Positions 1-64,000 are shown, numbered from the stretch's first letter. The stretch: DNA of 64,000 nucleotides from Deinococcales bacterium (GCA_013298595.1 JAAFIG010000011.1:61090-125089); one strand, 5' to 3'. Program-made: numbers and translations. Notes: generated by a model from the sequence alone, not told the origin.

Positions 1-1
1 G

Positions 2-364
2 TATCATATCCGAGCGAAATTCAAAGAAGATTTCTGTATCAGTTTTTGCGATCACAACTGGCAAGCCCTTGATAATTATCATTTCTCGAGTGTTTACGAA
101 GCGCTGGTCATGGCAGAATTGGTCTTTGCTGTGCAGGCAAACGAATGGATAGACTGTCATCCGCCACGTAGCGAGAAACTCTACAAAAGCCAATCTCGAG
201 TCCGACGTAGCCAATTAGAAAAAATGCACCGCCGAATTGTTGGTGTTTTTACAGACTGGAAAACTTCACTGTATTTTGTCACTCGATTCAATGCAAACGA
301 GTTAGGCTACTGGTCTGGAATTCGTGCTCGAGTACAGTTTACAGCTGTGCCGCCCGAAGAATAA
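2..364 (+). CDS. Hypothetical protein, 5' end outside window
   Basis: The reading frame is open from the first bases of the window to a TAA at 362-364, giving at least 120 residues. The start codon lies upstream of the window, so the internal ATG at 110 should not be taken as the true start. The visible part is rich in basic and aromatic residues and has no signal peptide or membrane segment. I do not recognise a family. It is followed 19 bp later by a HAD hydrolase on the same strand, so the two may be co-transcribed. CTCGAG sites at 86, 195 and 327 match the density of neighbouring genes, so it looks native. Confidence 0.6.
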   Translation, partial: YHIRAKFKEDFCISFCDHNWQALDNYHFSSVYEALVMAELVFAVQANEWIDCHPPRSEKLYKSQSRVRRSQLEKMHRRIVGVFTDWKTSLYFVTRFNANELGYWSGIRARVQFTAVPPEE

Positions 365-383
365 GCGTGTTAGCATTGACCTC

Positions 384-983
384 ATGAAAGCCATGATCTT
401 TGATGCCGACGGAGTGATTATTCGCCCCGAAACATGGTTTTTTGTACCAGCCGAAAAAGTCTACGGCATTCCAAAACAACTATTTCTCGAGTTTATTTAT
501 GGCACTTTTCAGCGTTGCACCACAGGTGAACTCGAGCTATTAGAAATCTTACCGCCTTTACTCGAGCGGTGGGGTGTAAAAATCAGCGCAGCAGAATTTG
601 TCCAGGCGTGGGTTGAACACGAACATCATCTGGATACGGTGTTACTCGAGCAAATTCAGCAAGTCCGAGCTTCTGGGATTCCGTGTTATCTTGCCACAAA
701 TCAGGAGCGCAACCGAGCGGTATATCTTAAAAATCAAATGAAGCTCGAGAACATGTTTGATGGTTTATTTATCTCGAGTGAAATCGGTGCGCGTAAACCA
801 GATGCTGTTTTTTACCAGCATGTGCAAAAAACTTTGCAACTCGAGCCAAAAGACATTCTTTTCTGGGATGACTCGAGCACCAACGTTGAAGCTGCAATAG
901 CCTGTGGTTGGCACGGCGAAGTTTTTGTGCCAACCACAACTGCAAAGATTTTAGAAAAAATTATTTTGCCACTTCAAAAGTAA
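384..983 (+). CDS. HAD-superfamily hydrolase (phosphatase-like)
   Basis: A 199-residue haloacid-dehalogenase-fold protein. Motif I is FDADGVI near the N-terminus (nucleophile Asp and general acid Asp), motif II is ATNQ in the middle, motif III is the Lys of ARKPDAVF, and motif IV is FWDDSSTNVEAA (metal-binding acidic pair). Members of HAD subfamily IA usually hydrolyse small phosphate esters such as sugar phosphates or phosphoglycolate, but the substrate cannot be read from sequence. I chose the ATG at 384 because it puts motif I at the usual position. The longer frame from 324 overlaps the upstream gene. The stop overlaps the 3' end of the convergent gene at 961 by 23 bp. Confidence 0.85.
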   Translation: MKAMIFDADGVIIRPETWFFVPAEKVYGIPKQLFLEFIYGTFQRCTTGELELLEILPPLLERWGVKISAAEFVQAWVEHEHHLDTVLLEQIQQVRASGIPCYLATNQERNRAVYLKNQMKLENMFDGLFISSEIGARKPDAVFYQHVQKTLQLEPKDILFWDDSSTNVEAAIACGWHGEVFVPTTTAKILEKIILPLQK

Positions 984-1521
984 AAACAGTGCCATTGAAT
1001 TTATAGTAGCCAAGCGCAAATTCGCCCAGTGGCTCGAGCATTTCGATGGTGGTACCTTTTTGAGGGAACTTCAAGTACCAACTGAGTTCGTCTTGCTTCC
1101 ATTTTTCTTCACTGCGTTTTTGGTTGTACACACCAAGCATTGCCTCGAGTTGTTTAGTATTTGGTTTAGCCACAACCACAGTTTGTTTACTGTATGTTTT
1201 GCCGTTCCAAATTGCAAAAATCAGATCAGTGGTAATACACGCTGGTCCGCAACCCGTGGCGGTAATACCAATCAGGTCGGTGCCGTTTTTCTTACGCCAA
1301 ACAGCAAATTCACCTCTACCCTCCCAGAAACCATCTTTACCACCATTAAACTCGAGGTAATCGTTTTTGACATCTTGGGTTATAATTTTGCGCCCTGACG
1401 TGTCATAAATACTTTTTGGTAACATTTTCCAATGCTCGAGTAAACTGCGTTTGCTTTGAGCGGCAACCAAACTCGAGATGCTTAAACCAATCAAAACCAA
1501 TCCTAGAATTATTTTTTTCAT
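961..1521 (-). CDS. Small secreted protein, unknown function
   Basis: A protein of about 186 residues. The start MKKIILGLVLIGL followed by SSLVAAQ is a typical signal peptide with likely cleavage after AAQ or nearby. The ATG at 1521 overlaps the TGA of the preceding gene (ATGA), which marks translational coupling and argues against the longer frame from 1536. The mature part holds a GCGPAC cysteine pair and many aromatic residues. It is probably exported. It is the last gene of a four-gene leftward run of secreted proteins (3893 to 961). I recognise no family. Confidence 0.75.
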   Translation of the reverse strand: MKKIILGLVLIGLSISSLVAAQSKRSLLEHWKMLPKSIYDTSGRKIITQDVKNDYLEFNGGKDGFWEGRGEFAVWRKKNGTDLIGITATGCGPACITTDLIFAIWNGKTYSKQTVVVAKPNTKQLEAMLGVYNQKRSEEKWKQDELSWYLKFPQKGTTIEMLEPLGEFALGYYKFNGTVFTFEVAK

Positions 1522-2366
1522 ACGCCACATCCCCATTCGAGTATTTTGCTAAAGCCTTTGCCATTCCAATTATAAATGTTGACGCCATACCCTTCGTGGA
1601 CTAGGTCGTCGACAAAAATTTCCATTTTTCCATCGCCATCAATATCGGCTATGGCACTAATAAATTGTGTTAAAACTTGTGGTTGCCCGGATGTACCATC
1701 AAAAGGCTTTTCTATAACGCGTTCGCTAAGACTAAAGGTTTGGACTTTACCAGCTATCACTTTGCGTACCAGCACCAACGAGTACTCGCCTTTTTCGGAG
1801 CCATAAGTGCCATTTAAACGATTCTGAGCATCAAAACTCAGGCGCGGGTTTTGAGCAACGATTAAGACTTCGTTGCTTTTATCGTTGTCTAAATCCACTT
1901 GGAGCACTTGCGATACCATGGCAGGCTTGGCAATTTTACGTTGCTGTAATTCATCGGCAATAATTTTTTGATACGTGGCATTGGTATTTGCAATACTCGA
2001 GATTGCTCGAGGCACAGGATTCCAAGCAGCAGCAATGGCATAGGTTGGTAAGTACGGTAATTTAACTGGGGTGCTGATATCAGTAACTCGTACCCAATCG
2101 CAGGTACTGCCTATGGATACTTTACCACCAGCCATGGCTTTTCCAATCACACCAGTGTTGTTGAATAAAACGCTCTTTAAGCCACCAGCAATGGCTGCTT
2201 GGCTGGATGTGCTGAGGTCTTCAGCATCAACCCATTTGTTACCCTCGAGTGCGCCAACAATGACGGTTTCGTCTAAATCCAAACGAAGGAGCACAGCTTT
2301 GGGTGCGCTTTGGGCAAGGGCGATGAGGCTCGAGGTGAGTAACAGTCCAATAAATACTTGTTTCAT
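1518..2366 (-). CDS. Secreted protein with FG-GAP/VCBS-like calcium loops
   Basis: About 282 residues, with an N-terminal signal peptide (MKQVFIGLLLTSSLIALAQS). Two aspartate-rich loops, DLDNDKSNEVLI and DIDGDGKMEIFV, match the DxDxDG pattern of FG-GAP/VCBS or EF-hand-like calcium sites. This suggests an extracellular calcium-stabilised beta structure. The start at 2366 is chosen for the signal peptide and for its 1-bp spacing from the stop of the upstream gene (2368). The frame from 2438 would run through that gene. It sits in an operon of secreted proteins. The role is unknown, and adhesion or envelope monitoring would be a guess. Confidence 0.75.
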   Translation of the reverse strand: MKQVFIGLLLTSSLIALAQSAPKAVLLRLDLDETVIVGALEGNKWVDAEDLSTSSQAAIAGGLKSVLFNNTGVIGKAMAGGKVSIGSTCDWVRVTDISTPVKLPYLPTYAIAAAWNPVPRAISSIANTNATYQKIIADELQQRKIAKPAMVSQVLQVDLDNDKSNEVLIVAQNPRLSFDAQNRLNGTYGSEKGEYSLVLVRKVIAGKVQTFSLSERVIEKPFDGTSGQPQVLTQFISAIADIDGDGKMEIFVDDLVHEGYGVNIYNWNGKGFSKILEWGCGV

Positions 2367-2367
2367 A

Positions 2368-2961: not shown

Positions 2962-3110
2962 GATTCTCCTTGCCTCGAGTTCTCGAGAGTTGCAGTTTAC
3001 AAACATAGCGCAACAAAAACGCAACAACTCAAGCGAAAACCTCACTCGAGATAGCAGGTGGGTACAGTCGGTACTAAACCCGAAGCAGGAGCCTACCGAG
3101 CCTGATTTTT

Positions 3111-3893: not shown

Positions 3894-3899
3894 AGCTCC

Positions 3900-3905
3900 A
3901 TACTA
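3900..3905 (-). promoter_or_regulatory. -10 box of leaderless promoter, secreted-protein operon
   Basis: TAGTAT on the minus strand, six bases from the ATG at 3893. Spacing and sequence match the TANNNT leaderless pattern seen at many starts in this window. Confidence 0.5.
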
Positions 3906-3945
3906 TGCCAAATCATCATGACATCAGCGTGACAGGACAAGATTT

Positions 3946-5541: not shown

Positions 5542-5548
5542 ATCTTGT

Positions 5549-5588: not shown

Positions 5589-5595
5589 AAAAACC

Positions 5596-7014: not shown

Positions 7015-9438
7015 TTACCCTGGGCATTTTGTTGGACCCGCTGCGACAGAACCTTCTCTTGAACAAATAACTTGGCTGGTATTCTCGAGATTAATTTCGC
7101 TGCTGACCACAGAATCATAAACGTATGTGCCCAGTCTTTGCCCAATTTCTGAAATTGTAATTGTGCCATCCGCATTAACAGTTTTTTCGCGGTACACCGT
7201 AATATCATATGTTCCTGTGGCTAAATCATCGAAGGCAAATGCACCATTGGCTTGAACTGGAGTATCTGGATAATTTAAACGCGTGCGTTTATTGCTATTT
7301 TCCACTTTGTAAATTCGTAAAAAATACCCTGCTGGATTAGTCAGAACATTATTGCCTTGTTCGTAGTAAACGCGTTGCTCGAGGTTGCGGGTGCCATATT
7401 GCAAACTGATTTTTCCTGCAAAAATACCATTGAGATTGCTACGGTTTAAGCTGACACTAATCACTTGTGTTTGGTTAACTGCCAGATTGATTGTATTTGG
7501 GGTGGCACTTAAACCCGTACCTGCTGCTGTGACACTGATATTTGCAGCAGCATCGCCAATGTTTTTAATGGTAAATGTGCTTTGTGTTTGGCTTGTGCCT
7601 AATGTTATTTCACTTGGGTCAGAACGAACAATCACTGCGCCAATATTTGGTAATGATGTGGCTTTTTGTAAAGCAGTATCGGCACTGACTAAACCAGCCC
7701 CGCAACCTTGTTCACAATTGACTAAACCCGTTAAGCTCGAGCTATCCATTAAATAAGACCGAATTCGCACCCAGTTATTTGGGTCTGTGCCACGCAATGC
7801 GGCATTTCGACTCATCATCAAAGCGACCAAACCTGCAATATGTGGCGATGCCATCGAAGTGCCATGGTACGAACCATACCCCCAACTAGTACAGGGGGGT
7901 ATGGTTCCACCAAGCGGACTATTAAACTGTCCAACATTGCCAGTACCACAACCTAAAGTACTGAGTACACCATCTTCAATTTTTCGTTGAATCGCAAAAT
8001 CACCACCGGGTGCTACTATAGCCACACTCGAGCCATAATCTGAATAACTGGCTCGAGCTTTAGTTGGTCCTAATGCCCCAACAGTAATCACACCTTGCAG
8101 ATTGGCTGGTGTGAATTTAGCTGCATCTATGTTGCTGTTACCTGCTGCGACAACAACAACAACCCCTTGGGCGTTCACTGCATCAACAGCTGCTTGTAAG
8201 GTTGGACTGGGCGATTGTTCGCCACCCAGACTCATATTGATAATATTGGCTGGGTTTGGATTGGGTGGGATTGCACCTAATGGTGATGTGCTAATACCAG
8301 CTGCCCAATACATTGCTTTGGCAATTTTTCCAATGTCGCCTTCGGTACTGCTCAAGGCGCGGATTGGTAGAATTTGGCTTTTCCAAGCAACACCTGCAAC
8401 ACCTGCAGCATTGTTGGTGCAAGCACCAACCGTTCCCGCAACATGTGTGCCATGAAAACCGACAATGGTATCAGTATCAAACGGGTTGTTATCACCTTGT
8501 AAGAAATCATAGCCAGGAAGAATTTTTGGTTTATTTGGTGCAACTTCACAATTAAAATCTGGGTGACGTTTGGCTGGGTCGGTGCTATCCCACAGAATGC
8601 CTGAGTCCAACACAGCAACGGTAACACCCGCACCAACATCGGCTTCGCTCGAGAATTGATTCCAAGCAGCAGGTAAAGCAAGGGCTGTGTAATGCCATTG
8701 TTGTGCGTACAGTGGGTCGTTGGGCGTTGGCACATTTTGTAATTTTAAGATGGTGTTTGGCTCAGCGTAGATCACATCGGTTCGCGTTCTGAGTTGTTGC
8801 ACAAATTGCAAGGTGGTTTCGGCTTCGATACCTTGTACTCGAGCAACTGCGCTACCTTGGATTCGAGCTTGGGCTTGGACACTTTTAATAATTGCGGTGT
8901 TGTTGGATATCCAATCAGTAATCTGGAGGTCTGGGGTGTTTTGTAATCTGGCAGTAACTTGGGCTGGGGTGCTGGTATTGCGAAATTGCACAATGGCTTC
9001 GCCTGGACGCATGATGGCGTGTTCATATTCGGGTAGTGTGGTGGCGAATTGTACTGCTGGACGGACAACACCTGCAATGCTGGCACAATTTTTTGCAGTA
9101 GCAGCGGCAACTAAATTCACTCGAATTGGGTTACTTTGAATCACATTGTTACCATCAGAAATGGTGGCTACAAATATCACACTGCTGTTATTGGTGACTG
9201 TTGGTGATAACAGCCACGAGGCACTATTACCACTCGAGCTAAGTTCACCAATTTTTGGTGACATGGCAAATGTGTATTTTAAGCGGGCTTTTTCTGGATC
9301 GCTGGCTTTGACACTTAAATTAACCGTTTGGCATGGATTCACATTGTTGCTAGAAGCTGTAAAATCCTCGAGTAATGGCGGTAAGTTTTGTCCACACCCG
9401 AGAAGTACCAAGGGCAAAAAGAATAAAAAGGGGCGCAT
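7015..9438 (-). CDS. Subtilisin-like serine protease, lipoprotein
   Basis: 807 residues. The signal sequence ends in LVLLGCGQ, a lipobox, so the protein is probably lipid-anchored. An N-terminal Ig-like or pro-region leads into an S8 catalytic domain with Asp in VAVLDSGILWDS (about residue 277), His in GFHGTHVAGTVG (about 331) and Ser in GTSMASPHIAGLVALM (about 528). The C-terminal part has an Asp-box-free beta domain (TFTIKNIGDAAANISV, a choice-of-anchor/ASPM-like fold) and a carboxypeptidase-regulatory-like segment (FAFDDLATGTYDITVYRE). It is likely a secreted scavenging or processing protease. Confidence 0.9.
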   Translation of the reverse strand: MRPFLFFLPLVLLGCGQNLPPLLEDFTASSNNVNPCQTVNLSVKASDPEKARLKYTFAMSPKIGELSSSGNSASWLLSPTVTNNSSVIFVATISDGNNVIQSNPIRVNLVAAATAKNCASIAGVVRPAVQFATTLPEYEHAIMRPGEAIVQFRNTSTPAQVTARLQNTPDLQITDWISNNTAIIKSVQAQARIQGSAVARVQGIEAETTLQFVQQLRTRTDVIYAEPNTILKLQNVPTPNDPLYAQQWHYTALALPAAWNQFSSEADVGAGVTVAVLDSGILWDSTDPAKRHPDFNCEVAPNKPKILPGYDFLQGDNNPFDTDTIVGFHGTHVAGTVGACTNNAAGVAGVAWKSQILPIRALSSTEGDIGKIAKAMYWAAGISTSPLGAIPPNPNPANIINMSLGGEQSPSPTLQAAVDAVNAQGVVVVVAAGNSNIDAAKFTPANLQGVITVGALGPTKARASYSDYGSSVAIVAPGGDFAIQRKIEDGVLSTLGCGTGNVGQFNSPLGGTIPPCTSWGYGSYHGTSMASPHIAGLVALMMSRNAALRGTDPNNWVRIRSYLMDSSSLTGLVNCEQGCGAGLVSADTALQKATSLPNIGAVIVRSDPSEITLGTSQTQSTFTIKNIGDAAANISVTAAGTGLSATPNTINLAVNQTQVISVSLNRSNLNGIFAGKISLQYGTRNLEQRVYYEQGNNVLTNPAGYFLRIYKVENSNKRTRLNYPDTPVQANGAFAFDDLATGTYDITVYREKTVNADGTITISEIGQRLGTYVYDSVVSSEINLENTSQVICSREGSVAAGPTKCPG

Positions 9439-15722: not shown

Positions 15723-16808
15723 TTAGACTCGTAATGGATTGACAATCGCTAAGTACCCAGGGTCGGATTCAGCTGTAAATTTGGCTGGGGCGTTAATGCC
15801 AAGCCCAATGTGAACTTCACCTTCAATAGGGGAGAGCGCTTCGGTCAGTTGCTTAGCACGGAAACCCACAGTGATAGCTGGTTCAGAGCCGTTTTGCACC
15901 ACCTCGAGTACATCTTGAGCACGTCCAAAATCGCTTTCGGAAACCAATTGTAATTTTCCACCTGCAACAATAAATTCAACTTTATTATTGGTACTTTTAT
16001 CAGCAACCACAGCCACTCGAGCCACAGCTTCGCGCAATGCACCTGCTGAAACTGCCACTGTCACACTCGAGGTGGTTGGTATGACCCGTTGATAATCTGG
16101 CAGTTCGCCGTCCATTAGTTTAGCATTGATACGGATTCGATCTGAAGCGACCGACAACGTGCCTTGCGAAATGGTTAAGCGCACTTCGCCATCTTTAAGC
16201 ACCCGAATCAGTTCGTCGGCATTACGAGCTGGTATCACCAATTTACGGGGTTCAGCGGTACTCGAGGCAGCAAAATTTCGGTAGGCTAAACGGAAACCAT
16301 CAGTAGCAACCACTCTCGAGCTAGTTGGAGTTAGTTCGAGTTGTACTCCTCGAAAAATGGCACGGAATTCTTCGGCAGCTGCGGCATAACGCACACTGGT
16401 TAAGCTTTTGCTCAATTCTCGAGCATCTAAAGTCAAATGTGTTTCGCTTGGAAATTGTAATTCTGGGTAAGCACTCAGGTCGCCTGTTTGTAATTTAAAA
16501 GTGCTGCCACCACTAGCAACGGTCAGTTCTGAACCATTGAGGTGTAATTCGACCAATTCGCCAGATAAAGCTTTGGTGATTTGGGCAAATAATTGAGCTG
16601 GTACAACAAAATCTTTGCCATCCACAATTTGCGCTTCGAGGTTATATTCGATATCAATCTCGAGGTTTGTGCCAGAAAGGGCTAAGCCTTTGGGGGTCAT
16701 GGCAACTTTGAGTTGAGTCAGTGCTGCGTTGCTGCTACGGGCTGGCACAATGCGTTCCAACATACCTAGGGCTTCGCTGAGTTGCTTTTTGGGGATTTGT
16801 ACTTGCAT
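15723..16808 (-). CDS. dnaN: DNA polymerase III beta subunit (sliding clamp)
   Basis: 361 residues, the normal length for the bacterial clamp with its three repeated domains. Recognisable segments include FVVPAQLFAQITKAL, ATDGFRLAYR, RKLVIPARNADELIRVL and the C-terminal GYLAIVNPLRV, close to the canonical end of the clamp. It forms a homodimeric ring that holds polymerase on DNA and recruits repair factors. The ATG is preceded by GGAGGA. dnaN lies downstream of dnaA on the same strand, separated by 429 bp that hold the origin, a common order in bacteria. Confidence 0.97.
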   Translation of the reverse strand: MQVQIPKKQLSEALGMLERIVPARSSNAALTQLKVAMTPKGLALSGTNLEIDIEYNLEAQIVDGKDFVVPAQLFAQITKALSGELVELHLNGSELTVASGGSTFKLQTGDLSAYPELQFPSETHLTLDARELSKSLTSVRYAAAAEEFRAIFRGVQLELTPTSSRVVATDGFRLAYRNFAASSTAEPRKLVIPARNADELIRVLKDGEVRLTISQGTLSVASDRIRINAKLMDGELPDYQRVIPTTSSVTVAVSAGALREAVARVAVVADKSTNNKVEFIVAGGKLQLVSESDFGRAQDVLEVVQNGSEPAITVGFRAKQLTEALSPIEGEVHIGLGINAPAKFTAESDPGYLAIVNPLRV

Positions 16809-16993
16809 GGATTCCTCCGCTGGTTCTTGCTGGCTTGTGGGGTTCAGGTGATGGATCTTGGATTAGGTTGGTCTGCTAATTTTCTAAATTTGAGGTAATG
16901 AAGATATTTCGGTTTATTTTTTGTTTTTTTGGTGTCTTGTATTGACCAAATCTCAAGACAATTTCCACATAGGTTTAATACTAACAGATTAAT

Positions 16994-17020
16994 TAATAGA
17001 AATAATAGTAGTAATAATAG
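16994..17020 (+). promoter_or_regulatory. DnaA-trio element (origin unwinding site)
   Basis: Nine consecutive triplets read TAA or TAG except one AAA. They end at 17020, followed by GGGC and then two abutting DnaA boxes at 17025 and 17034. This order (AT-rich DNA, TAG/TAA triplets, short GC stretch, DnaA box TGTGGATA) matches the basal unwinding system known from Bacillus subtilis, where DnaA binds the triplets as single strand. The region just upstream, 16870-16990, is very AT-rich and would be the unwinding element. Confidence 0.8.
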
Positions 17021-17024
17021 GGGC

Positions 17025-17232
17025 TGTGGATAGTGTGGATAAGTACCTTTAAGGCTGTTCTAAACGCATTTCTGGGTGTGGATAAAACTGTGCATAACTT
17101 CTAGGTGTCCTGTGGATAACTTGTGGATAAGTCGGGAGTTATGCACAGGGTGTTTGGGGTCTCGAGTTATAAACAGCTTTTCCACAGGTTGTCCACAACT
17201 TATCCACAGGGTTATGAACAGACTTATCCACA
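17025..17232. promoter_or_regulatory. oriC: oriC, DnaA-box array between dnaN and dnaA
   Basis: Perfect boxes TGTGGATAA lie at 17034, 17077, 17111 and 17122, and TTATCCACA at 17200 and 17224. Near matches are TGTGGATAG at 17025, TGTGCATAA at 17089, TTATGCACA at 17139, TTTTCCACA at 17178, TTGTCCACA at 17189 and TTATGAACA at 17212. About twelve boxes in 208 bp, left half on one strand and right half on the other, make a clear origin array. It lies directly beside the trio element and the AT-rich stretch. Confidence 0.92.
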
Positions 17233-17237
17233 AGCAT

Positions 17238-18572
17238 TTAGGTTAACTTGGCGCGGATCTCGCGGATATTTGCCATTAAATCCGTGTCTTGCTCGGATTG
17301 TTCTGCCACTTTTTGAATCGCATACAAAATAGTGCTGTGATCTCGAGCAAAGAAAGCCCCTATCTCGGGCAAACTATGATTAGTCAGTTCTCGAATGACA
17401 AACATCGCAACTTGGCGTGGCAGTACAACTTCTTTAGCCCGACCAGCTGATTTCAAAGCTTCGGTGGCAATCCCATAATGCAACGCTACAGTATCAAGAA
17501 TATCCTGCATCTCGAGACTGACTTCAGTTTCGGTAAAGACATTACTGAGGGCTTTTGCGGCAATGGACTTCGATACCTGATTACCTTCCAACCCATTTAA
17601 GCTGGCAAAAGCAATCACCCGCATTAGTGCACCTTCTAATTCGCGGATATTGCTGGTCACTTGTTTAGCAATAAACTCGAGAACTTCATCGGGAATAAAC
17701 ATCTGACGGTATTCACTATTCATACGTAAAATAGCCACTCGAGTTTCAAATTCTGGGCTTTGAATATCGGTAATTAAACCCCATTCAAAACGGCTGCGAA
17801 GCCGAGCCTCGAGGGTTAAAATATTCTTGGGTGGTCGGTCAGAAGAGAGGATAATTTGTTTTCCAGCTTCGTATAAAGCATTGAAAGTATGAAAAAATTC
17901 TTCTTGGGTGCGTTCTTTACCTGCAATAAATTGAATATCGTCTACCAGTAACAAATCTACGCTGCGGTAACGGTCTTTGAAATTGGTCATTTTATCTTCA
18001 CGGATTGAATTAATTAAATCATTGGTAAATGTTTCAGTACTGATATACTCGATGCGCTTATCAGGAAATCTTTCGGCAACACTATGCCCAACAGCGTGCA
18101 TAAGGTGCGTTTTACCAAGTCCGACTCCACCATAAATAAACAGTGGATTGTACGCTTTACCTGGTTGCTCTGCCACAGCTAAAGCAGCAGCATGGGCAAA
18201 ATTGTTATTTGGTCCAATGACAAATTTTTCAAACGTGTATTTAACATTGAGTTTATGCCGACCATCATCGTAGGTTTGGGCATTACTTTTAGCTTTTGGT
18301 TCAGGCTCGAGCATGGCTTCGGAAGTGCTTGGTAACACTTTAAAACCAATTTTAGGATTAGCTGATCCAATATGACGCAATGCTTCCTCGAGCAAATTTT
18401 GGTAATGCTGCTTTAACCAATCGGCAGCGAATGAATTTGGAACGCCGAGAATATAAGTGCCATTCTCGAGACCTTGTGGTTTTACTCGGGTAAACCAAGT
18501 GTGATACTCCACATCAGTAACGTTGCGTTTGACGTAATCCTTGACTTGTTCCCAGATGTCGAGCTGACTCAC
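17238..18572 (-). CDS. dnaA: Chromosomal replication initiator DnaA
   Basis: 444 residues. An N-terminal domain ([22 protein letters not shown]) is followed by a short linker and the AAA+ domain with Walker [16 protein letters not shown], Walker [10 protein letters not shown], and the C-terminal helix-turn-helix signature [11 protein letters not shown] that reads DnaA boxes. All domains are present. The start is a GTG at 18572, with a TACAAT box seven bases upstream and a perfect DnaA box four bases beyond that, which suggests self-repression. No ribosome site is visible, consistent with a leaderless mRNA. Confidence 0.97.
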
Positions 18573-18579
18573 AACGTCT

Positions 18580-18598
18580 ATTGTACTAGTTATCCACA
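18580..18598 (-). promoter_or_regulatory. dnaA promoter with embedded DnaA box
   Basis: The -10 box TACAAT occupies 18580-18585 on the minus strand, seven bases from the GTG start. TTATCCACA at 18590-18598 lies inside the -10/-35 spacer, so bound DnaA should block polymerase. Confidence 0.65.
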
Positions 18599-18741
18599 GG
18601 TTGCGATAGTCCTCTGAGTATAAGTTGGAGATTATACTCGAGTTCGGTTATTTTATTAAAGTATTGTGTTAAAAAGCTAACTATACTGCGTAGCACCACG
18701 TCCTAAATGATACTTTGACTGGGTATAGACATTCTCATGGG

Positions 18742-18812
18742 TGTGGATAACTAAGTTTTTTTGTGGATAACTTAGGTAAGGTGAGCAGTAAAATAACCTT
18801 AACTGTGGATAA
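18742..18812 (+). promoter_or_regulatory. DnaA-box cluster 3 upstream of dnaA
   Basis: Three perfect TGTGGATAA boxes at 18742-18750, 18762-18770 and 18804-18812, all in one orientation. Spacing between the first two is 20 bp, about two helix turns. They lie in the 381-bp region between the divergent dnaA and LAGLIDADG-rsmG-parAB transcription units. Confidence 0.75.
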
Positions 18813-18848
18813 CTGTTTTGGGTATCATATGACCTGAGAAAAACTAAG

Positions 18849-18930
18849 GGTTTCACATGAAACTGTTTCACGGGGAAACAATTATAAGATTGAAACCGAG
18901 AAATATTGCTAAAGAGTTTCACATGAAACT
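18849..18930. promoter_or_regulatory. parS: parS-like centromere sites
   Basis: Three sites resemble the bacterial parS consensus (TGTTTCAC/GTGAAACA). They are GGTTTCACATGAAACT at 18849-18864, an adjoining TGTTTCACGGGGAAACA at 18864-18880 (one extra central base), and AGTTTCACATGAAACT at 18915-18930. They lie less than 1 kb from parA/parB and just upstream of that operon. The CACATG core of two sites departs from the usual CACGTG. Confidence 0.75.
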
Positions 18931-18953
18931 GTTTTTCTGGTAAATATATAGAC

Positions 18954-19310
18954 ATGGCACTTTCAGAGTTCGATCTCGGGTATATTATGGGTCTGATGGT
19001 AGGCGAAGGTTCATTTACGGGTGATAAAGAACAACCAGCCTTACAATTGCGCTTAAAAGAAGATGACCCCGAACCGCTCAAGAAACTAAACCGCTTATTA
19101 GGTGGTAGTATTTATGGACCTTATAACCACTCAGAACGAAAATACTACGTTTGGATGTTGCGCGGTGCAGCTCTTTGGAAAGCAACAGAACTTTTTTACC
19201 AACACTTACCTAATAGCCGTAAACGCAGACAATTTCTTGAATGGTGGCAAAAATACGCCCATAAACTGCCACCCTTACCGCCAGAACTTCAACTCGAGGT
19301 ACAACCATGA
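18954..19310 (+). CDS. Single-motif LAGLIDADG-like protein
   Basis: 118 residues. The N-terminus LGYIMGLMVGEGSF matches the LAGLIDADG helix of homing endonucleases (GLxxGEGSF with the acidic catalytic residue). The following KLNRLLGGSIYGPY and YYVWMLRG fit the beta strands of the same fold. One motif would act as a homodimer. It is free-standing, not inside an intron or intein, and its TGA overlaps the ATG of rsmG (ATGA), so it is the first gene of the rsmG-parA-parB operon. Its body lacks CTCGAG until the last codons, unlike its neighbours, which hints at later arrival. It may be a homing enzyme or a domesticated DNA-binding regulator. Confidence 0.7.
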   Translation: MALSEFDLGYIMGLMVGEGSFTGDKEQPALQLRLKEDDPEPLKKLNRLLGGSIYGPYNHSERKYYVWMLRGAALWKATELFYQHLPNSRKRRQFLEWWQKYAHKLPPLPPELQLEVQP

Positions 19311-19861
19311 CAATCAACCCACAACTCGAGATATACAGCCAATTGGTACGAGATTACTCTAAAGTTCTCGATTTAAGTTCACCAAAAATGCTACAAGAAT
19401 TTACAATTGGCATCGAACGAAGCCAAACATTTATACCAGCTATTCCAGAAAAAGCTCGAGTTCTAGATATTGGCAGTGGAGTTGGGCTACCAGCAATTCC
19501 CATAGCCATTCTTCGTCCAGATATTCAAATAACCCTTTGTGAAATTCGCCAGAAACGAGCTGCTTTTCTTGAACGCAGTGTCAGTCAATTAAAACTAAAT
19601 CATGCCACTGTTTTCCAAGGTGATGTACGAAAACTCGAGCAAACATTTGATTGCATCACAGCTCTTTGGGTTGGTAATCTCGAACAATTGTACACATTAG
19701 CTAAGCATTGCCTCGCGCCAACTTGGAGCATCATCACACGTAAAGGCAACGATGCCAGTATTGAACTCGAGCTTTTTTTGGAAAAGCACCCAGATATCAA
19801 CGGCACAATCCAGCTCTTAGACGATGGCGCAAATCTAGTGATTCTGCGCGGAGGAAATTAA
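19307..19861 (+). CDS. rsmG: 16S rRNA (guanine527-N7)-methyltransferase RsmG
   Basis: 184 residues, slightly shorter than the usual 205-240. The SAM-binding loop [17 protein letters not shown] and the motif [16 protein letters not shown] are typical of RsmG (GidB), which makes m7G527 in 16S rRNA. The C-terminal part is compact, ending NLVILRGGN. The start overlaps the LAGLIDADG gene and the stop is followed immediately by parA. The gidB-parA-parB order near the origin is conserved in many bacteria. Loss of RsmG gives low-level streptomycin resistance in other species. Confidence 0.93.
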
Positions 19862-19862
19862 T

Positions 19863-20618
19863 ATGGCAACCAAGATCATCAGCTTTGTTAATCAAAAAGG
19901 AGGTGTTGGCAAAACCACAACGGCAGTCAATTTGGCAGCCTATTTAGCCAGCCATGGGCAAAGAATATTGCTTATAGATTTAGACCCACAAGGCAATGCC
20001 AGCAGCGGGTTGGGCATCCAAAATGCCGAAATTGGTATCTACGATGTCCTGATGGGTGATAGCAGTCTCAAGGAAGCTATCCAAGCAACAGACCAAGAAA
20101 AACTTTTTGTGCTGCCAGCAACTGCCGATTTAGCAGGTGCAATTGTTGAAATGAATGACCATCCAACCAAACTCAAAACTGTACTCGGAAAACTCGAGAA
20201 TTTTGATATTGTGCTGATAGATGCGCCACCATCATTGGGGGCATTAACCATCAATGCACTCACTGCTTCACATGGTTTAATCATTCCATTACAAGCCGAA
20301 TACTATGCACTCGAGGGAATTGCAGGGATGTTAGATACTGTTGAAAGAATTAAAGCAGGTTTAAACCCTAAATTGAATATTCTTGGCATTGTTGTCACCA
20401 TGTTTGATACCAGAACCAATCTTGCTCAACAAGTCGAACAAAATGTGCGTAAACACTTTGGCGATTTGGTTTTTTGGTCTGTGATTCCACGCAATGTGAA
20501 ATTATCCGAAGCCCCAAGTTATGGGCAAACCATTAATAAGTATGCTCCGATCTCGAGTGGTGCAGGAGCTTACAAGCGCTTAGCGCAGGAGGTGATGCAA
20601 CGTGTCCAAAAGCTCTAA
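19863..20618 (+). CDS. parA: Chromosome partitioning ATPase ParA/Soj
   Basis: 251 residues. The deviant Walker A motif [14 protein letters not shown] with its signature lysine, Walker A' [15 protein letters not shown] and Walker [15 protein letters not shown] are all present. Soj-type ParA moves origins with ParB and in several species also controls DnaA. A ribosome site GGAGGAA sits at the end of rsmG, directly before the ATG. The 3' end overlaps the parB start by 17 bp. Confidence 0.96.
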
Positions 20619-21456
20619 AACAGGTGGTTTAGGCAGAGGCTTAGATGCTCTGATTCCCAAAGGCAAAGAAGACCCTGTCAGCACCCAAGCACCCACCCAT
20701 TTGGCTATTAAACTACTCGAGCCAAACCCTAAGCAACCTCGTGGGATTTTTGACGAAGCTGCTCTCGAGGAGTTAACTGCTAGTATCCGCGAGAAAGGTG
20801 TGATTCAACCTTTATTGGTGCGCCCACGAGGTAAGCGTTACGAAATTGTTGCTGGAGAACGACGTTGGCGAGCAGCTCAACGAGCAGGTCTTGAGCAAGT
20901 ACCTGTGGTGATTCGTGAGTTAACAGATCGTGAAACCCTCGAGATTGCTTTAATCGAAAATTTGCAACGCGAAGACCTTGGCGCACTCGAAGAAGCTCGA
21001 GCCTATAACCAATTGCTCGAATTAGGTACAACCCAAGATGAAGTGGCAAAAGCTGTAGGTAAAGCCCGTAGTACGGTTACAAATAGTCTGCGTTTATTGC
21101 AACTAACTAAGGATGCCCAGCTTGCTTTAGAAGATGGAAGTATCACATCAGGACACGCTCGCGCTATACTTGGGCAACCCGCTGTAGACCGCGATTGGGC
21201 ACTCGAGCAAATTGTGGTACGTGATTTAACTGTGCGCCAAGCAGAACAACTAAAACGCGAACCACCAGCCGAAACGGTGGCTAAACAAGCAGCGCTCGAG
21301 AAACCCAGAGTTCACCGACAACTTGAACTTGAACTCTCGAGAATTGCTGGTACAAAAGTCAAAATAGTTGGACAAGATAAAGGCAAACTTGAATTGTATT
21401 ATCACAATTTGGAAGATTTAAATCGAATCCTCGAGATTCTTGGTTACGAACAATAA
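20602..21456 (+). CDS. parB: Chromosome partitioning protein ParB/Spo0J
   Basis: 284 residues from a GTG with an excellent ribosome site (AGGAGGTGATG) nine bases before. The N-terminal [10 protein letters not shown] segment is the ParA-stimulating peptide, [13 protein letters not shown] is the CTP-binding motif, and [22 protein letters not shown] is the helix-turn-helix that binds parS. A C-terminal dimerisation region follows. ParB loads as a CTP-dependent clamp at parS, which fits the sites at 18849-18930. Confidence 0.96.
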
Positions 21457-21936: not shown

Positions 21937-22446
21937 ATGCGATACGCTGTTTTTCTGCGTGCCATTAACCTTGGTAAGCACAATAAAATGCTAATGCTCG
22001 AGTTGAAAACTTGGTTAACAGAAATGGGTTGCTGCAACATCGAAACATATTTGCAAACAGGCAACATAATGCTCGAGACCACGAAACCAGCCGAGGAGTT
22101 TGCGATTCAACTCGAAACAACACTGCTCGAGAAGCACTATAAAGATGTCAGTGTATTTGTTCGAGATCAACAGCAAATACAGTCGCTTCTCGAGACTCAG
22201 CCGTTCAAAACACCACTCGAGACACATCAGGAATACATTACCTTGTTGCGTCATCCCAGCGCCTTTGTATTGCCCCAAAGTGCCAATGGACTCGAGGTTG
22301 TGCAACGAGACCCTTTAACGGTTTTTACTCGCCTCGAGAAGCACCCAGATGCGACTGCGCCAAATGCGTGGATTGAACGGCACACAAAAACCAAAGCCAC
22401 CTCGAGATTCTGGCGAGTGATGGCAGTGTTTTTGCAAAAGTTTTAG
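21937..22446 (+). CDS. DUF1697 family protein
   Basis: 169 residues. The start RYAVFLRAINLGKHNKMLMLELK, the YLQTGNIML segment and the C-terminal SRFWRVMAVF match the DUF1697 family (usual start YVALLRGINVGG...; core TYIQSGNVVF; end RNWNTV). The family is cytoplasmic and has no proven function. The gene has eight CTCGAG sites in 510 bp, one of the densest stretches here. It follows the HIT gene with a three-base gap. Confidence 0.85.
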   Translation: MRYAVFLRAINLGKHNKMLMLELKTWLTEMGCCNIETYLQTGNIMLETTKPAEEFAIQLETTLLEKHYKDVSVFVRDQQQIQSLLETQPFKTPLETHQEYITLLRHPSAFVLPQSANGLEVVQRDPLTVFTRLEKHPDATAPNAWIERHTKTKATSRFWRVMAVFLQKF

Positions 22447-37280: not shown

Positions 37281-37832
37281 ATGAACGCAATTGCCGAACA
37301 AACCATGACCATAGAACAATACCTCGAGTTTGAAAAAAACGCCGAGAAACGCCATGAATTTGTGGAAAACGCAATTTTAGCTATGGCAGGAAGTAGCTTA
37401 AACCATAACGAAATCATTTTTCAGATTCGTAGTGCCTTGACAAAAGCAGTGAAACAAAAAAATTGTCAAATTGCTACAGAATCGCTCAAAGTGCAAACCA
37501 AAATTGGACGGTATCGTTATCCAGATGTGGTTGTCAGTTGCGAAATTAGTTCAGACGAATACTTCATTGAATCACCATGTTTTATTGCTGAAGTGCAATC
37601 AGATAGTACAGCCGAAACAGATAACGGCAGCAAACTCGAGGAATACACCAAAATTCCTAGTCTGCAACGTTACGCTATTATTTCCCAAAAAACTCGACAA
37701 GTTGTGGTTTACAAACGCAATGCCAAAACATGGTCGTTTGAAGTGTTACTCGAGCAAGGTGAAATAGATATTCCATGCTTAGAAACAACGCTTACTTTGG
37801 ATCAAATTTATGCTGGACTTGAACTAGCCTGA
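37281..37832 (+). CDS. Uma2 family (DUF820) predicted endonuclease
   Basis: 183 residues. MTIEQYLEFEKNAEKRHEFVENAILAMAGSS, RYRYPDVVVSC and FIAEVQSDSTAETDNGSKLEEYTKIPSLQRYAII match the Uma2 family, a PD-(D/E)xK nuclease-like fold with Asp in the PDVVV strand and Glu in the AEV strand. Uma2 proteins are greatly expanded in cyanobacteria and Deinococcota and their role is unproven. It overlaps the 3' end of the opposite BTAD regulator gene by 25 bp. Confidence 0.9.
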   Translation: MNAIAEQTMTIEQYLEFEKNAEKRHEFVENAILAMAGSSLNHNEIIFQIRSALTKAVKQKNCQIATESLKVQTKIGRYRYPDVVVSCEISSDEYFIESPCFIAEVQSDSTAETDNGSKLEEYTKIPSLQRYAIISQKTRQVVVYKRNAKTWSFEVLLEQGEIDIPCLETTLTLDQIYAGLELA

Positions 37833-53890: not shown

Positions 53891-55093
53891 GTGTTCGATC
53901 CAGAAACTTTCCAAAGCACCTTCCTTGAACTAACCCGCAAGCCACTCTGGGCAGGATTTGCACCACTCGAGATTCCACTGCTGATTTGGGATGGTAACCG
54001 CACCTATGCTTTTAATCATCCAAACCCACCACCTCCTTTTGAAGCCGAATGGGATTGGTACGTGATGGAAGGACGAGCCGAAACAATCATTGGCAACAGC
54101 AGCGGCACCCTCGAGTTTTTACCTGTTGCCACAGTCATGGCAGCTAACCTCGAGACCGCAGATGCCGCAGCCATTGCGATTCATGAAGCATTTCATGTTT
54201 TTCAAGGAATGCAGTACCCCTTATGGACAACCAATGAACTGGACGCACTGACCTACCCACTATTTGACATAGATGTGTTGGCATTGCGCCGCATTGAAAG
54301 CCGTGCCTTATCAAAAGCCCTTGCCCTCCAAGACCTTGGTTGGGTCAGAGCTGCTTTAAAAGCTCGAGCTTCGAGATATGCCAAACTTGCCGAAAAACAC
54401 CGTATTTACGAACGAGAACTCGAACGACTCGAAGGCAGTGCGTATTTTGTCGAAGGACGAGCCAGAGGCGAAGCCACAACCATTGCCGAAGAAGATTTCC
54501 CAGCTTCGCAAATACGTGCTCGAACCTATGCTTCTGGCAGAGCTTGGATTGAACTTTTAACACGGTTTGCTCCGCAATCGCTACGCGACTTAAACAAAGA
54601 ATATGCCGATGTGTTGCTCAGACCCGTCGCCAAAAGTGCTCCAGAACGCCCATTAACTTTTGCCATTCTCGAGTACGAACGCGAACGGGCTGCACAAGAT
54701 ATTGCGGCTTTACAAGCCCAACAAGCGGCGAACCGAGCTGAATTTTTTGATGGTTTTGATTTTTTGCTCGAGATTAACAGCCGCATCCCATTACAAGCCC
54801 AAGGTTTTGACCCAATGAACATGCAAATCCTCGAGAACAACGAAATGATTCATAGCCGATATGTGCGTTTAGCCGATGCCAATGGCTCGCTCGAGGTGTT
54901 AAGTGCTCCCAGTTTAACCATCGGTACAGAAAATCCAATGCACATCACCCAAATTTTTGTCAAATTACCCAATCCGCCCAGTGTCAATCGTGGTCAGGTG
55001 TTACGGGTTCAACACGAAAAATTTAAATTAGAATGGAAAAACGCTCAACTTGAATTACTTGACCGTGCTATGCGAATCACCATCGAAGATTAA
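53891..55093 (+). CDS. Uncharacterised protein with HExxH metal motif
   Basis: 400 residues, GTG start. AAIAIHEAFHVFQGMQ near residue 98 carries HExxH, and LEGSAYFVEGRARGEA near residue 180 could supply the third Glu ligand, as in gluzincin metallopeptidases. There is no signal peptide, so a cytoplasmic enzyme is likely. I do not recognise the family; DUF-type peptidases of the MA clan have this layout. The last codons overlap the convergent rsmF-like gene by four bases. Confidence 0.6.
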   Translation: MFDPETFQSTFLELTRKPLWAGFAPLEIPLLIWDGNRTYAFNHPNPPPPFEAEWDWYVMEGRAETIIGNSSGTLEFLPVATVMAANLETADAAAIAIHEAFHVFQGMQYPLWTTNELDALTYPLFDIDVLALRRIESRALSKALALQDLGWVRAALKARASRYAKLAEKHRIYERELERLEGSAYFVEGRARGEATTIAEEDFPASQIRARTYASGRAWIELLTRFAPQSLRDLNKEYADVLLRPVAKSAPERPLTFAILEYERERAAQDIAALQAQQAANRAEFFDGFDFLLEINSRIPLQAQGFDPMNMQILENNEMIHSRYVRLADANGSLEVLSAPSLTIGTENPMHITQIFVKLPNPPSVNRGQVLRVQHEKFKLEWKNAQLELLDRAMRITIED

Positions 55094-56412
55094 TCTTCAT
55101 CTGTCTCGAGCTGGAAAATTTTGCCACGCAAATGCTTAGGGTAATGATTTTTAATCGTGCTACCGACGTGTTTACCCCAACCAAGCGCAAAACCTTGGGT
55201 CTGCAAAACCAGCCAACCAGTACTCCCCACTCGAGTGATTGTTTCACCGCGTAAAAAAGCAGCGATTTCATCAGCTTCGATTTCGAGTACTGCTTTTTGC
55301 TGAACTCGAGAAAGCCCATGATGAGGTTCAAGCCTATTTTTCTCGAGATGTGCCACAGGAATACCTGCACGCAATGCCCGAATACCATTTAAATCAGGCA
55401 TTTCAGGATGCGCCATATGGATTTCACCACGCCACTCGAGCGGCACACCAGCAGGAACAACAAATTCGTCTAGGAATTCACGCCAGATTTTGCTACTCAC
55501 AGCGCGTAACTCGGTGACTGCATGCACAGGATCGCCAGTGTTTTTGCGTAACCGAGCCAGAAAATGCCCTTCACCACGAATTTCATGTGGAAACAATCTC
55601 GAGCCAATACCACCAATGCCAGCTCGAAAACCGGGTATTTCCTCGAGCGAAAATTCTGGGTGCACCTTCAGAAACTGATTGATCACAGCTTCGTTTTCGG
55701 CAATCGAAAAAGTACAGGTGCTATAAACCAATACCCCATTTTCGGCGAGTAATGCGGCTGCATGCTCGAGAATTGCCAGTTGCCGCACAGCACAAGTTTG
55801 CACATGAGCTTCAGACCAACTTTGAATTGCTGCTTCGTGCTTCCGAAACATTCCTTCACCGCTGCAAGGTGCATCCACTAAAACCCGATCAAAACTCGCC
55901 CCCCATTTTTGTGCCAATTTTGCAGGTTCTTCGTTCGTTACAACCCCAATACACCCTAAACGCTCGAGGTTTTCGGCTAAAGCCTTAGCTCGAGTCGCAC
56001 TGATTTCATTGCAAACCAACACCCCAGTATTTTGCATCAGTGCAGCCAAATGCGTACTTTTACCACCTGGAGCAGCACATAAATCCAGCACCCGCAAATT
56101 AGGTTTAACCTCGAGTGCTAAAGCCACTGCCTGAGCACTGGCTTCTTGCACATAAAACGCACCTGCATGATGCAAAGCATTGGCACCCAATCGTGCACCT
56201 CGAGGGGCATACAAACCCAGTTCAGACCACGGCACAGCCTCGAGATGCGTGGGTTGCAAAAGCTTTTGTAAATCTGGAGCAGAAACTTTTAGACCATTAG
56301 CCCGAATTGCATACTCGCGTTCACCAGTCTCGAGAGCAACTTTAAAAGCAGCAAACTCTGCACCCAGTAAAGCCTGCATTTGCTCGAGAAATAATTGAGG
56401 TAATTGCCGCAT
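55090..56412 (-). CDS. RNA m5C methyltransferase (RsmF/RsmB/NOL1 family)
   Basis: 440 residues. LDLCAAPGGKSTHLAALMQ is the SAM loop, VLVDAPCSGEGMFRKHE holds one catalytic Cys and YSTCTFSIAENEAVI the other. The C-terminal part (FLRGETITRVGSTGWLVLQTQGFALGWGKHVGSTIKNHYPKHLRG) is the RNA-binding tail seen in YebU/RsmF-type enzymes. It methylates C5 of a cytosine in 16S rRNA or tRNA. The exact target is not predictable. The start has TAGAAT eight bases upstream. Confidence 0.92.
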   Translation of the reverse strand: MRQLPQLFLEQMQALLGAEFAAFKVALETGEREYAIRANGLKVSAPDLQKLLQPTHLEAVPWSELGLYAPRGARLGANALHHAGAFYVQEASAQAVALALEVKPNLRVLDLCAAPGGKSTHLAALMQNTGVLVCNEISATRAKALAENLERLGCIGVVTNEEPAKLAQKWGASFDRVLVDAPCSGEGMFRKHEAAIQSWSEAHVQTCAVRQLAILEHAAALLAENGVLVYSTCTFSIAENEAVINQFLKVHPEFSLEEIPGFRAGIGGIGSRLFPHEIRGEGHFLARLRKNTGDPVHAVTELRAVSSKIWREFLDEFVVPAGVPLEWRGEIHMAHPEMPDLNGIRALRAGIPVAHLEKNRLEPHHGLSRVQQKAVLEIEADEIAAFLRGETITRVGSTGWLVLQTQGFALGWGKHVGSTIKNHYPKHLRGKIFQLETDED

Positions 56413-59463: not shown

Positions 59464-59485
59464 AGGATGGGCATTTGCCCATCCT
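59464..59485 (-). terminator. Terminator after PA14 lipoprotein gene
   Basis: AGGATGGGC (59464-59472) and GCCCATCCT (59477-59485) with a four-base loop. On the minus strand it is followed by TTTCTTT. Confidence 0.82.
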
Positions 59486-59503
59486 CAACAATTAAGTGTT
59501 TTC

Positions 59504-61876: not shown

Positions 61877-62118
61877 GATGTATTCCCTCCTCAGGAATCT
61901 CGAGGTTTGGTGTCTCGAGTGGTTGTGTCATACCTCCCGACATGACTGCAACATTGTGCAATACCACTGGGGAATGTTGGGGAATCAAAAAGGTAAACCT
62001 TGTATTTGACAGCTTTGTTTTTACTAAGCGTTAAATTTGTATAAGTTTTTTGCTGGGTCTAAGCAGGTAATTTAAGCTCATTTTGTACTTTTGTGTCTCG
62101 AGTTTGCTTTCTTCTTGC
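61877..62118. other. Intergenic region between divergent genes
   Basis: A gap of about 240 bp between the PA14 lipoprotein gene (leftward) and the MalT-like gene (rightward). I find no further gene. Two CTCGAG sites and several T-runs are present. Confidence 0.4.
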
Positions 62119-62124
62119 TAAACT
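62119..62124 (+). promoter_or_regulatory. -10 box, leaderless promoter of MalT-like gene
   Basis: TAAACT six bases before the ATG at 62131. Confidence 0.55.
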
Positions 62125-62130
62125 GTGTGT

Positions 62131-64000
62131 ATGCCTATTTCGCGTCGTCGTTTGCCTGTGCATGTGTTGGATCGTCCGCGTTTGTTGCGTCGGCTCGAGG
62201 CTTCAGAAGCTCAGGTGATTGCAGTCATTGCACCAGCAGGGTATGGCAAAACCACGCTTTTAACGCAGTTCGCAGCTTTATCTAAACGTCCTGTAGCGTG
62301 GCTGACTCTGGATGATTCCTCAGCGGATGCAGCAGCTTTAGCGGGCGCATTAGCGGCAGCTTTGATGGTGGCGTTTCCTCGTGCTAAATTTGCTTCTTGG
62401 AAAGCAGCATTGGCACTTGGTGCTTTGCCACATGGCTTGGCAGCGGCACTTGCCGAGGATGTTAATCAGTTGCAACGCAATGCAGTAATGGTATTGGATC
62501 GGCTCGAGCGATTGAGTGTTGAATCCTCTAAATGGCTCGAGGGTTTGTTCGAGATTTTAGAAGTGCGGCATCAGGTTGTACTTGCTGGGTATGAAGGTTC
62601 ATTTTTTCCAGTTACTCGGTTTGTTGCCGATGATCGCGCCATCGTACTTGGAACTTCAGATTTAGCGTTTACACAAAAAGAAGCACAGGTGTATTTGCAA
62701 CGCCGTGGTTTTATTGGCGATGCAGCTCAAGCAGCTCAGGCACTCGAGGGTTGGGCTGTGGGTTTGGCATTATTAGCTTCGGGTTCGGGTTTAGCCTCTC
62801 GAGCTGACCAACTTATTTTTGAGGTTTTGCAGCGTTTACCGTTGCCGTTACGTAATCAAATTGCCGAAGCAGCCGTGCTCGAGGTTTGGGATGAGCAAAG
62901 TGCTGTGCAGTTGGGTTGTGTTTTACCACAAGGTTGGTTGCAAGCTGTTGTCAATGCGGGTTTGCCTTTGCAGCCTTTGGGCACACGACAATATTTACCC
63001 CATTCGATTTTATTGGCAGCACTCGAGGTATGGTTAAGGCGTGTTCCTGAACGTCATGCCGAGTTACATTGCAATGCGGCTGTGTTCGCGGAGCGTTCAG
63101 GGTTGTTACTCGAGGCTTTACGGCATTTTCGTGTTGCTGGTGCGTTGCTCGAGGTTCATCGGATAGCAGAGGCTATTATTGTACCTGCGGTTAATCGTGA
63201 AGAATTTTATTGGGTTAAACAGTTGTTAGAATCTTTTTTACCTGCCGAGTTATCTGTGCGTTTACAATTGAGGTTAGCGCAGGCGTGGCGGCAAACTGGT
63301 GATGTTGTTCGTGCCAACGAGGTTTTGCAGCAAGTTCAGAATTCCGGTGTACAAGATGCTTTGTTGTTTGGTTTATTGGCAATTGGCGAGTATAACCAAG
63401 GTCATTATGAACGTCAGATTGAGTTTGTTCAGCAGGGTTTAGCTTTGGATTCAGATGTTCGTATGCAGGCAAAACTCTTGATGTCTTTGGCGGCTGGTTT
63501 TGCCGAACTTGGACGGGTTGAAAAAGATGTGGCTGCTGCCGAAGAAGCGGTTCATTGTGCAGAGTTAAGTGGTGACCAAATGCTTATTGCGGCTACAGTT
63601 TCTGTTTTAGCGGCTTCGTATGGGTCGGCTGGGCGGCGTACAGATTGCGAACGTATGTTTCGACGAGCTTTGGATATATGCGAAAAATTGGATTTAACAG
63701 CCAAGGCATTGGTAAGTTACAATAATTTTGCTAATTATTTATCGGATTGGGGACGTGTCACAGAAGCACTCAATTTGGTTCAGAAAGGAATTCCTTTAGC
63801 TCGAGCAAGTCAAAGTTTTTGGTTGGCATTATTGCTTGGCACCCAAGGCATAATGCAATTGAGACTTGGTGATTTTATGGCGGCGTTGCATAGTTTCTCT
63901 GAAGGTATAGAGCGTTGCCAGTTTTTTGGTTTGGGTGGTGTGGATTATAATTATCAGCTTTTTTCGATCCAAGCGGCAATTCTGGCTAAAGATTTAACAC
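62131..64000 (+). CDS. MalT-like STAND regulator, 3' end outside window
   Basis: At least 623 residues, frame open to the window edge. The start PISRRRLPVHVLDRPRLLRRLEA followed by Walker A VIAVIAPAGYGKTTLLTQFAAL is typical of MalT/LuxR-type STAND NTPases, and VMVLDRLERLS is a Walker B-like strand. TPR-like repeats follow (LGRVEKDVAAAEEAVHCAELSGD, YNNFANYLSDWGRVTEALNLVQKGI). A DNA-binding domain (LuxR or BTAD) is expected beyond the edge. It is a second large ATPase/TPR regulator besides the one at 37808, so the lineage uses this type often. Confidence 0.85.
   Translation, partial: MPISRRRLPVHVLDRPRLLRRLEASEAQVIAVIAPAGYGKTTLLTQFAALSKRPVAWLTLDDSSADAAALAGALAAALMVAFPRAKFASWKAALALGALPHGLAAALAEDVNQLQRNAVMVLDRLERLSVESSKWLEGLFEILEVRHQVVLAGYEGSFFPVTRFVADDRAIVLGTSDLAFTQKEAQVYLQRRGFIGDAAQAAQALEGWAVGLALLASGSGLASRADQLIFEVLQRLPLPLRNQIAEAAVLEVWDEQSAVQLGCVLPQGWLQAVVNAGLPLQPLGTRQYLPHSILLAALEVWLRRVPERHAELHCNAAVFAERSGLLLEALRHFRVAGALLEVHRIAEAIIVPAVNREEFYWVKQLLESFLPAELSVRLQLRLAQAWRQTGDVVRANEVLQQVQNSGVQDALLFGLLAIGEYNQGHYERQIEFVQQGLALDSDVRMQAKLLMSLAAGFAELGRVEKDVAAAEEAVHCAELSGDQMLIAATVSVLAASYGSAGRRTDCERMFRRALDICEKLDLTAKALVSYNNFANYLSDWGRVTEALNLVQKGIPLARASQSFWLALLLGTQGIMQLRLGDFMAALHSFSEGIERCQFFGLGGVDYNYQLFSIQAAILAKDLT

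Follow-up and report, generated by a model that had tools for sequence, protein, structure and literature searches.

Why does one six-base palindrome, CTCGAG, occur so often in the DNA of a Deinococcales bacterium, and what might keep it there? The question is raised by a stretch of 64,000 nucleotides (GCA_013298595.1 JAAFIG010000011.1:61090-125089; the window in what follows), in which we counted 392 copies of this word, or 6.1/kb, while Markov models fitted with CTCGAG masked predict 3.7 (order 1) or 5.3 (order 2). An earlier note on this DNA had drawn attention to the excess. Its three local counts (11, 5 and 8) are all exact, and its claim of over-representation was, if anything, understated, as 392 copies stand against 4-5 expected. 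The copies are distributed as follows.

1-64000: 392 CTCGAG, mean spacing 163 bp
1-1000: 11 CTCGAG, the densest kilobase named in the earlier note
19861-20860: 5 CTCGAG, spanning parA and the first part of parB
21937-22446, plus strand: DUF1697 gene with 8 CTCGAG

The source genome (G000 in our numbering) is a metagenome-assembled genome of the phylum Deinococcota (68 contigs, 4.58 Mb, 94.4% complete). It contains 27,159 CTCGAG (5.9/kb, about one every 170 bases) and 15 copies of the reversed word GAGCTC. Detailed statistics were obtained from 491 kb of this genome (45% G+C) and from 23-130 kb samples of the other dense genomes; all genomes of the two families discussed below are multi-contig draft assemblies, open reading frames were called mechanically, and kin genomes are not independent observations. 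In the 491 kb, the observed-to-expected ratio (O/E) of CTCGAG is 90 at order 1 and 66 at order 2. It had been proposed to judge the excess against a Markov expectation built from TCGA and its flanking trinucleotides; the excess stands when CTCGAG is masked, but the unmasked form of this check misleads. The maximal-order Markov ratio in the window is merely 1.19 because the word itself inflates its inner 5-mers, and we thus rejected that test. In the broad descriptive sense CTCGAG is a highly iterated palindrome (HIP): a single palindromic word that greatly exceeds expectation throughout the genome, both within genes and between them.

On both strands CTCGAG is favoured wherever the sequence can take it. 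The stationary bias, about 66-90 fold, is strong enough to change amino acids. Its density between genes (5.97/kb) equals the overall density (5.83/kb), and within genes all three codon frames are used (1514, 592 and 459 sites). The density is flat around gene starts and stops, and among intergenic regions it is 5.6/kb in divergent, 5.9/kb in codirectional and somewhat higher, 8.4/kb (40 sites), in convergent ones. In one relative, G002, the intergenic density reaches 10.3/kb, double its coding density; other genomes differ in this. As many as 1514 of 2301 Leu-Glu pairs (66%) are encoded as CTCGAG, while 1.6% would be expected from codon use elsewhere, and the word is present in another frame in 62% of [SPTA]-Arg-[VADEG] triplets. 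Leu-Glu pairs are themselves in 2.3-fold excess in G000 (2305 against 1001 expected) and Glu-Leu pairs are as frequent as expected (1010), and therefore the DNA word has reshaped the proteome. The Leu-Glu excess is also 2.1-2.5 fold in G001, G002, G003, G012 and G016, and it is not seen in G004 or in Deinococcus plasmids. A codon or codon-pair preference for CTC-GAG might be thought to produce the abundance, as the Leu-Glu frame is the most used one. However, the equal intergenic density and the heavy use of the other two frames led us to reject this idea, and CTC and GAG are uncommon outside CTCGAG; we consider it practically untenable, in agreement with the earlier remark that codon preference alone does not account for the word.

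The trait is not confined to one genome. All four genomes of the bacterium's own family (f1) contain near 6 CTCGAG/kb, and in a second family (f2) three of four are enriched (6.2 per kb in G012, 7.7 in G016 and 3.6 in G008, with 0.3 in G004); six of the seven enriched genomes of both families have about 6-8 sites per kb. Across much of the phylum Deinococcota the word is enriched to a lesser degree, though not in all relatives. In our samples CTCGAG was the top over-represented palindrome in Meiothermus-like genomes (O/E 8-15), in two genomes of family f3 (14) and in one of family f4 (6.6); in a Thermus-like genome its O/E was 2.0 and it was not the top palindrome. The values for plasmids were 3.8 in Allomeiothermus silvanus, 4.3 in Oceanithermus profundus, 1.8 in T. 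thermophilus pTT27, 0.7 in D. deserti and 0.4 in D. radiodurans MP1. Natrialbaceae haloarchaea apparently represent a second, weaker and independent iteration of the same word, with 3.1-4.4 CTCGAG/kb genome-wide (G113-G116 and G118-G120) and GAGCTC mostly at 0.1-0.2/kb (0.6 in one genome). As in G000, the word is found there genome-wide, in other frames and in intergenic DNA, and GAGCTC is rare; unlike in the dense Deinococcota, its O/E is only 4-8 (two genomes) and there is neither short-range exclusion nor strong palindrome avoidance. At individual Natrialbaceae loci (L101, L112, L162, L204, L207 and L214) CTCGAG occurs in several frames as well as in intergenic DNA. When genome contigs and viral contigs were scanned for similarly dense patterns, most of the matches listed were high-GC chance occurrences or repeats; these scans say little on distribution. 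Searches of the accessible literature turned up no description of an iterated CTCGAG for any member of the Deinococcota.

The nearest analogue is indeed, as had been suggested in the earlier note, the cyanobacterial HIP1 (GCGATCGC). HIP1 and the alternate HIPs of cyanobacteria are, like CTCGAG, short genome-wide palindromes present on both strands and specific to a lineage, and alternate words are possible in single genomes (PMC4390886). The HIP1 word is cyanobacterial, whereas here the word is CTCGAG and the phylum Deinococcota. CTCGAG reaches 5,900-7,700 copies per Mb, in comparison to about 500-2,500 per Mb for the cyanobacterial HIPs (one degenerate word is higher); its density is two to three times that of most reported HIPs. 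Neither short-range exclusion nor strong palindrome avoidance, both present here, was found described for HIP1 in the sections consulted. For HIPs as Elhai describes them, a methyltransferase specific for the word would be expected alongside it; here no shared matching enzyme was found among five Pfam families, though an individual enzyme may still recognise CTCGAG. One-base deviations from such HIPs would be biased to the first and last positions; the transition neighbours of CTCGAG are raised at positions 1, 2 and 3. The function of HIP1 is, to our knowledge, still unexplained. CTCGAG, from a phylum unrelated to the cyanobacteria, makes the case more strongly: it is denser, apparently lacks a matching conserved methyltransferase, and is accompanied by a measurable exclusion distance and by a clear imprint on the proteome. 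It would thereby separate iteration from methylation.

CTCGAG copies exclude each other at distances under about 15-30 bp. Close pairs are scarce in the 491 kb (31 at 6-14 bp against 150 expected), and when pairs are pooled over the family, 17 are observed for 61 expected at 6-9 bp, 23 for 74 at 10-14 bp and 48 for 72 at 15-19 bp, the pair correlation being flat beyond about 20 bp. At constant amino-acid sequence, the fraction of G000 Leu-Glu pairs written as CTCGAG rises with the distance to the nearest site, from about 20% below 15 bp through 40-54% at 15-30 bp and 62% at 30-60 bp to 77% at 60-150 bp (p = 2e-31 between the nearest and the farthest class). Both a hairpin cost of adjacent copies and deletion between direct repeats were considered and rejected: among control hexamers, short-spaced direct repeats are not depleted and inverted ones are depleted solely at loops of 0-2 nt. 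As the exclusion is absent for other hexamer repeats and in CTCGAG-rich haloarchaea, these processes explain it poorly. No helical phasing of the spacing was found; a regular kilobase-scale spacing, hinted at by the window alone (variance/mean 0.65), vanished in the 491 kb (0.98).

Of 138 CTCGAG sites in 22 aligned genes, 91 are kept between G000 and G001 (20% for other hexamers), and at unshared sites the partner mostly differs at at least two positions. At conserved Leu-Glu positions of these two genomes CTCGAG is present in both in 58 cases, in neither in 11 and in one in 11 and 12 (a correlated state); between G000 and G003 the numbers are 25, 5, and 7 and 10, and this weak correlation suggests a global pressure and not a site-specific function. 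Transition near-misses are enriched (TTCGAG 381 against 195 expected, or 1.95-fold; CCCGAG 167 against 68, 2.5-fold; CTTGAG 294 against 173, 1.7-fold) and transversion near-misses are not, as expected of decay products. Correction of one mismatch type, T:G or C:A, therefore does not clear them; a Vsr-like T:G repair was rejected on the same grounds, since CTTGAG, which it would remove, is not depleted. The bases next to the word show weak preferences that vary from one genome to another and thus form no extended operator; an extended recognition motif around the word was likewise rejected. Two low-GC segments of G000 are nearly free of CTCGAG, one on contig C34 (about 70.6-83.2 kb) and one on contig C66 (77.6-81.1 kb, which holds the methyltransferase L029). 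The C34 island is recently acquired DNA, and such newly acquired DNA is without CTCGAG. Its loci L476 and L477 form a sugar/polysaccharide gene island with a GC content of 0.27-0.40 and few or no CTCGAG.

The six densest genomes also avoid other palindromes. Pooled over all other 6-bp palindromes, their O/E is 0.29-0.49, while most other samples give 0.66-0.97; the exceptions outside the six are the D. radiodurans plasmid (0.49) and Meiothermus-like genomes (0.52). In the 491 kb, GGCC occurs 16 times against about 1392 expected and CCGG 104 times against 810, and 26 of 63 other hexamer palindromes lie below 0.25 of expectation in comparison to 93 of 4032 non-palindromes. Palindromes with at least one spacer base are near 0.75-1.0 of expectation, therefore the avoidance is specific to perfect palindromes. 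The six genomes, which belong to both families, have its profile in common (Spearman 0.50-0.78 among them, mostly 0.2-0.45 outside), and 14 palindromes are avoided in all of them. The pattern looks like long restriction pressure. One could imagine a single methylation-free system of self/non-self recognition, with dense CTCGAG as the label of the chromosome and other palindromes as targets of attack; that the six dense genomes have both traits, and one avoidance profile across two families, speaks for such a system, but we find it very improbable.

The earlier note took the abundance to point to protection or to a methyl-linked process and proposed a search for an orphan methyltransferase. This search yielded six DNA-methyltransferase candidates in G000 (METHYLTRANSFERASES), in five Pfam families: L060 (514 amino acids, TaqI-like), L061 (1264 amino acids), L023, L029, L035 (5-methylcytosine type) and L412 (D12 family). 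Of these, L035 alone is matched at more than 55% identity in other dense genomes (74% in G001 and 59% in G012), and the PF00145 proteins of the equally dense G002 and G003 are about 30% identical to it or less, with none closer found. No DNA methyltransferase of the five Pfam families is common to the dense genomes, and therefore no conserved enzyme explains the trait, even if methylation as such may still occur. XhoI/PaeR7I restriction-modification has the same recognition word, but the XhoI-family endonuclease (PF04555) is absent from the dense genomes. With no shared methyltransferase, no PF04555 and no depletion of CTTGAG, the idea of protection or a methyl-linked process is not supported. 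Among relatives, XhoI-family endonucleases are found in G018, G042 and G048 and, broken, in G009; relatives with a homologue and an adjacent methyltransferase have no extra CTCGAG and an unremarkable CTCGAG/GAGCTC ratio. XhoI carriage as a driver was rejected, as this ratio is unaffected in genus g10. In G009 (L010, L058) the endonuclease gene has two stop codons and adjoins a gene for a 597-amino-acid adenine methyltransferase. Another candidate, L063 (G001, contig C254), lies beside a BsuBI/PstI-type endonuclease gene and is 41% identical to Rhodococcus L451, which has the same kind of partner; it therefore probably belongs to a CTGCAG system and was set aside. At L060, positions 7309-8232, a 308-amino-acid gene without a Pfam match overlaps the TaqI-like methyltransferase gene and possibly encodes an unrecognised restriction endonuclease. 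In the window, the statement that no methylase for CTCGAG lies there holds as far as tested: Pfam matches, obtained for 40 of 59 called genes, revealed rRNA methyltransferases only.

19307-19858: RsmG rRNA methyltransferase (Pfam)
55093-56412: RsmF-type rRNA methyltransferase (Pfam)

What, then, could favour the word? Our preferred explanation, which we put forward tentatively, is that a lineage-conserved protein with two-fold symmetry reads CTCGAG without a methyl mark, each occupied site bringing a small advantage. Such a protein, conserved in both families, would bind CTCGAG directly, and each occupied site might add a small benefit, for example by anchoring an architectural (nucleoid) protein; sites nearer than its footprint would not both be occupied, and the second would earn nothing. 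The exclusion at 15-30 bp fits site occupancy. Read as selection, the bias would amount to a scaled coefficient of about 4.2-4.5 for each site. A methyl-directed repair signal has been argued to saturate near one site per kb (PMC4390886), and an uptake signal should likewise saturate there; the density, about six-fold above this level, contradicts both. Several points weigh against a reader protein: no candidate for it was found; promoter-side regions are not depleted, whereas a stably bound protein might deplete them; the flanking preferences are weak, differ between genomes and form no extended operator; suppression in G000 is graded out to about 60 bp, beyond a simple footprint; and counts at the stationary state do not by themselves tell selection from biased repair. 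Any model has to accommodate the bias (about 66-90 fold), the mutual exclusion of copies at 15-30 bp and the lack of any preference for origin or promoters. The moderately enriched cultured relatives (Allomeiothermus and Oceanithermus) make a reader protein findable.

The main alternative is a molecular drive independent of methylation, in which a conserved repair or recombination enzyme would turn near-misses into CTCGAG, or shield the word from mutation, with no benefit to the cell. On one hand, accumulation in all contexts with altered amino acids agrees with this, and the weak G000-G003 correlation at conserved Leu-Glu positions fits a global pressure. On the other hand, transition near-misses are enriched and not emptied, and drive alone does not predict the exclusion; we think it rather unlikely, although selection is not separable from drive with the present data. 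Alternatively, following Elhai's proposal for HIP1, a CTCGAG methyltransferase may mark the sites, which are then created and kept by a methyl-directed process, for instance strand choice in mismatch repair. Alternate cyanobacterial HIPs go together with methyltransferases that recognise the word concerned (PMC4390886), Nocardia has a CTCGAG orphan methyltransferase (PMC4752239), and in Rhodococcus loci selected for density 70% of Leu-Glu pairs are CTCGAG against 27% expected. The dense genomes, however, have no common methyltransferase of the five families, relatives in which an XhoI homologue lies next to a methyltransferase show no enrichment, Halorubrum BOL3-1 methylates CTCGAG and yet only 560 sites are listed in its table (PMC8112702), and the density is about six-fold over the saturation argued for this model (PMC4390886). 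A role of this kind seems doubtful to us. Still less probable is a signal for DNA uptake or self-recognition, by which competent cells would prefer CTCGAG-bearing DNA and recombination would spread the word. Thermus and Deinococcus relatives are naturally competent, and the acquired islands without CTCGAG agree with this idea; uptake sequences of Haemophilus and Neisseria occur about once per kb. These, too, are iterated self-specific short words. The uptake sequences described in PMC1939737 are, however, non-palindromic. Moreover, six sites/kb is far above the need of one site per fragment, and the O/E is 1.8 in T. thermophilus pTT27 and 0.4 in D. radiodurans MP1.

As the window holds dnaA, dnaN, rsmG, parA and parB, the origin region could be read directly.

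15726-21453: chromosome origin region with dnaN, dnaA, rsmG, parA and parB
16809-17240: dnaA-dnaN intergenic region, probable origin side, 432 bp; one CTCGAG, no cluster
18573-19306: dnaA-rsmG intergenic region, 734 bp; two CTCGAG (18637 and 19293), no cluster

In Nocardia, whose orphan methyltransferase recognises the same word (Blow et al. 2016), CTCGAG forms a cluster in the interval from dnaA to the DNA polymerase III gene (PMC4752239). Unlike there, the corresponding region here holds one CTCGAG in 432 bp, and no origin cluster was found in either intergenic region. A repeat pair in the dnaA-rsmG gap, at 18846-18944 (GTTTCACATGAAAC), resembles parS sites. Elsewhere in the window, positions 37281-37829 encode a Uma2-family protein with a putative endonuclease domain.

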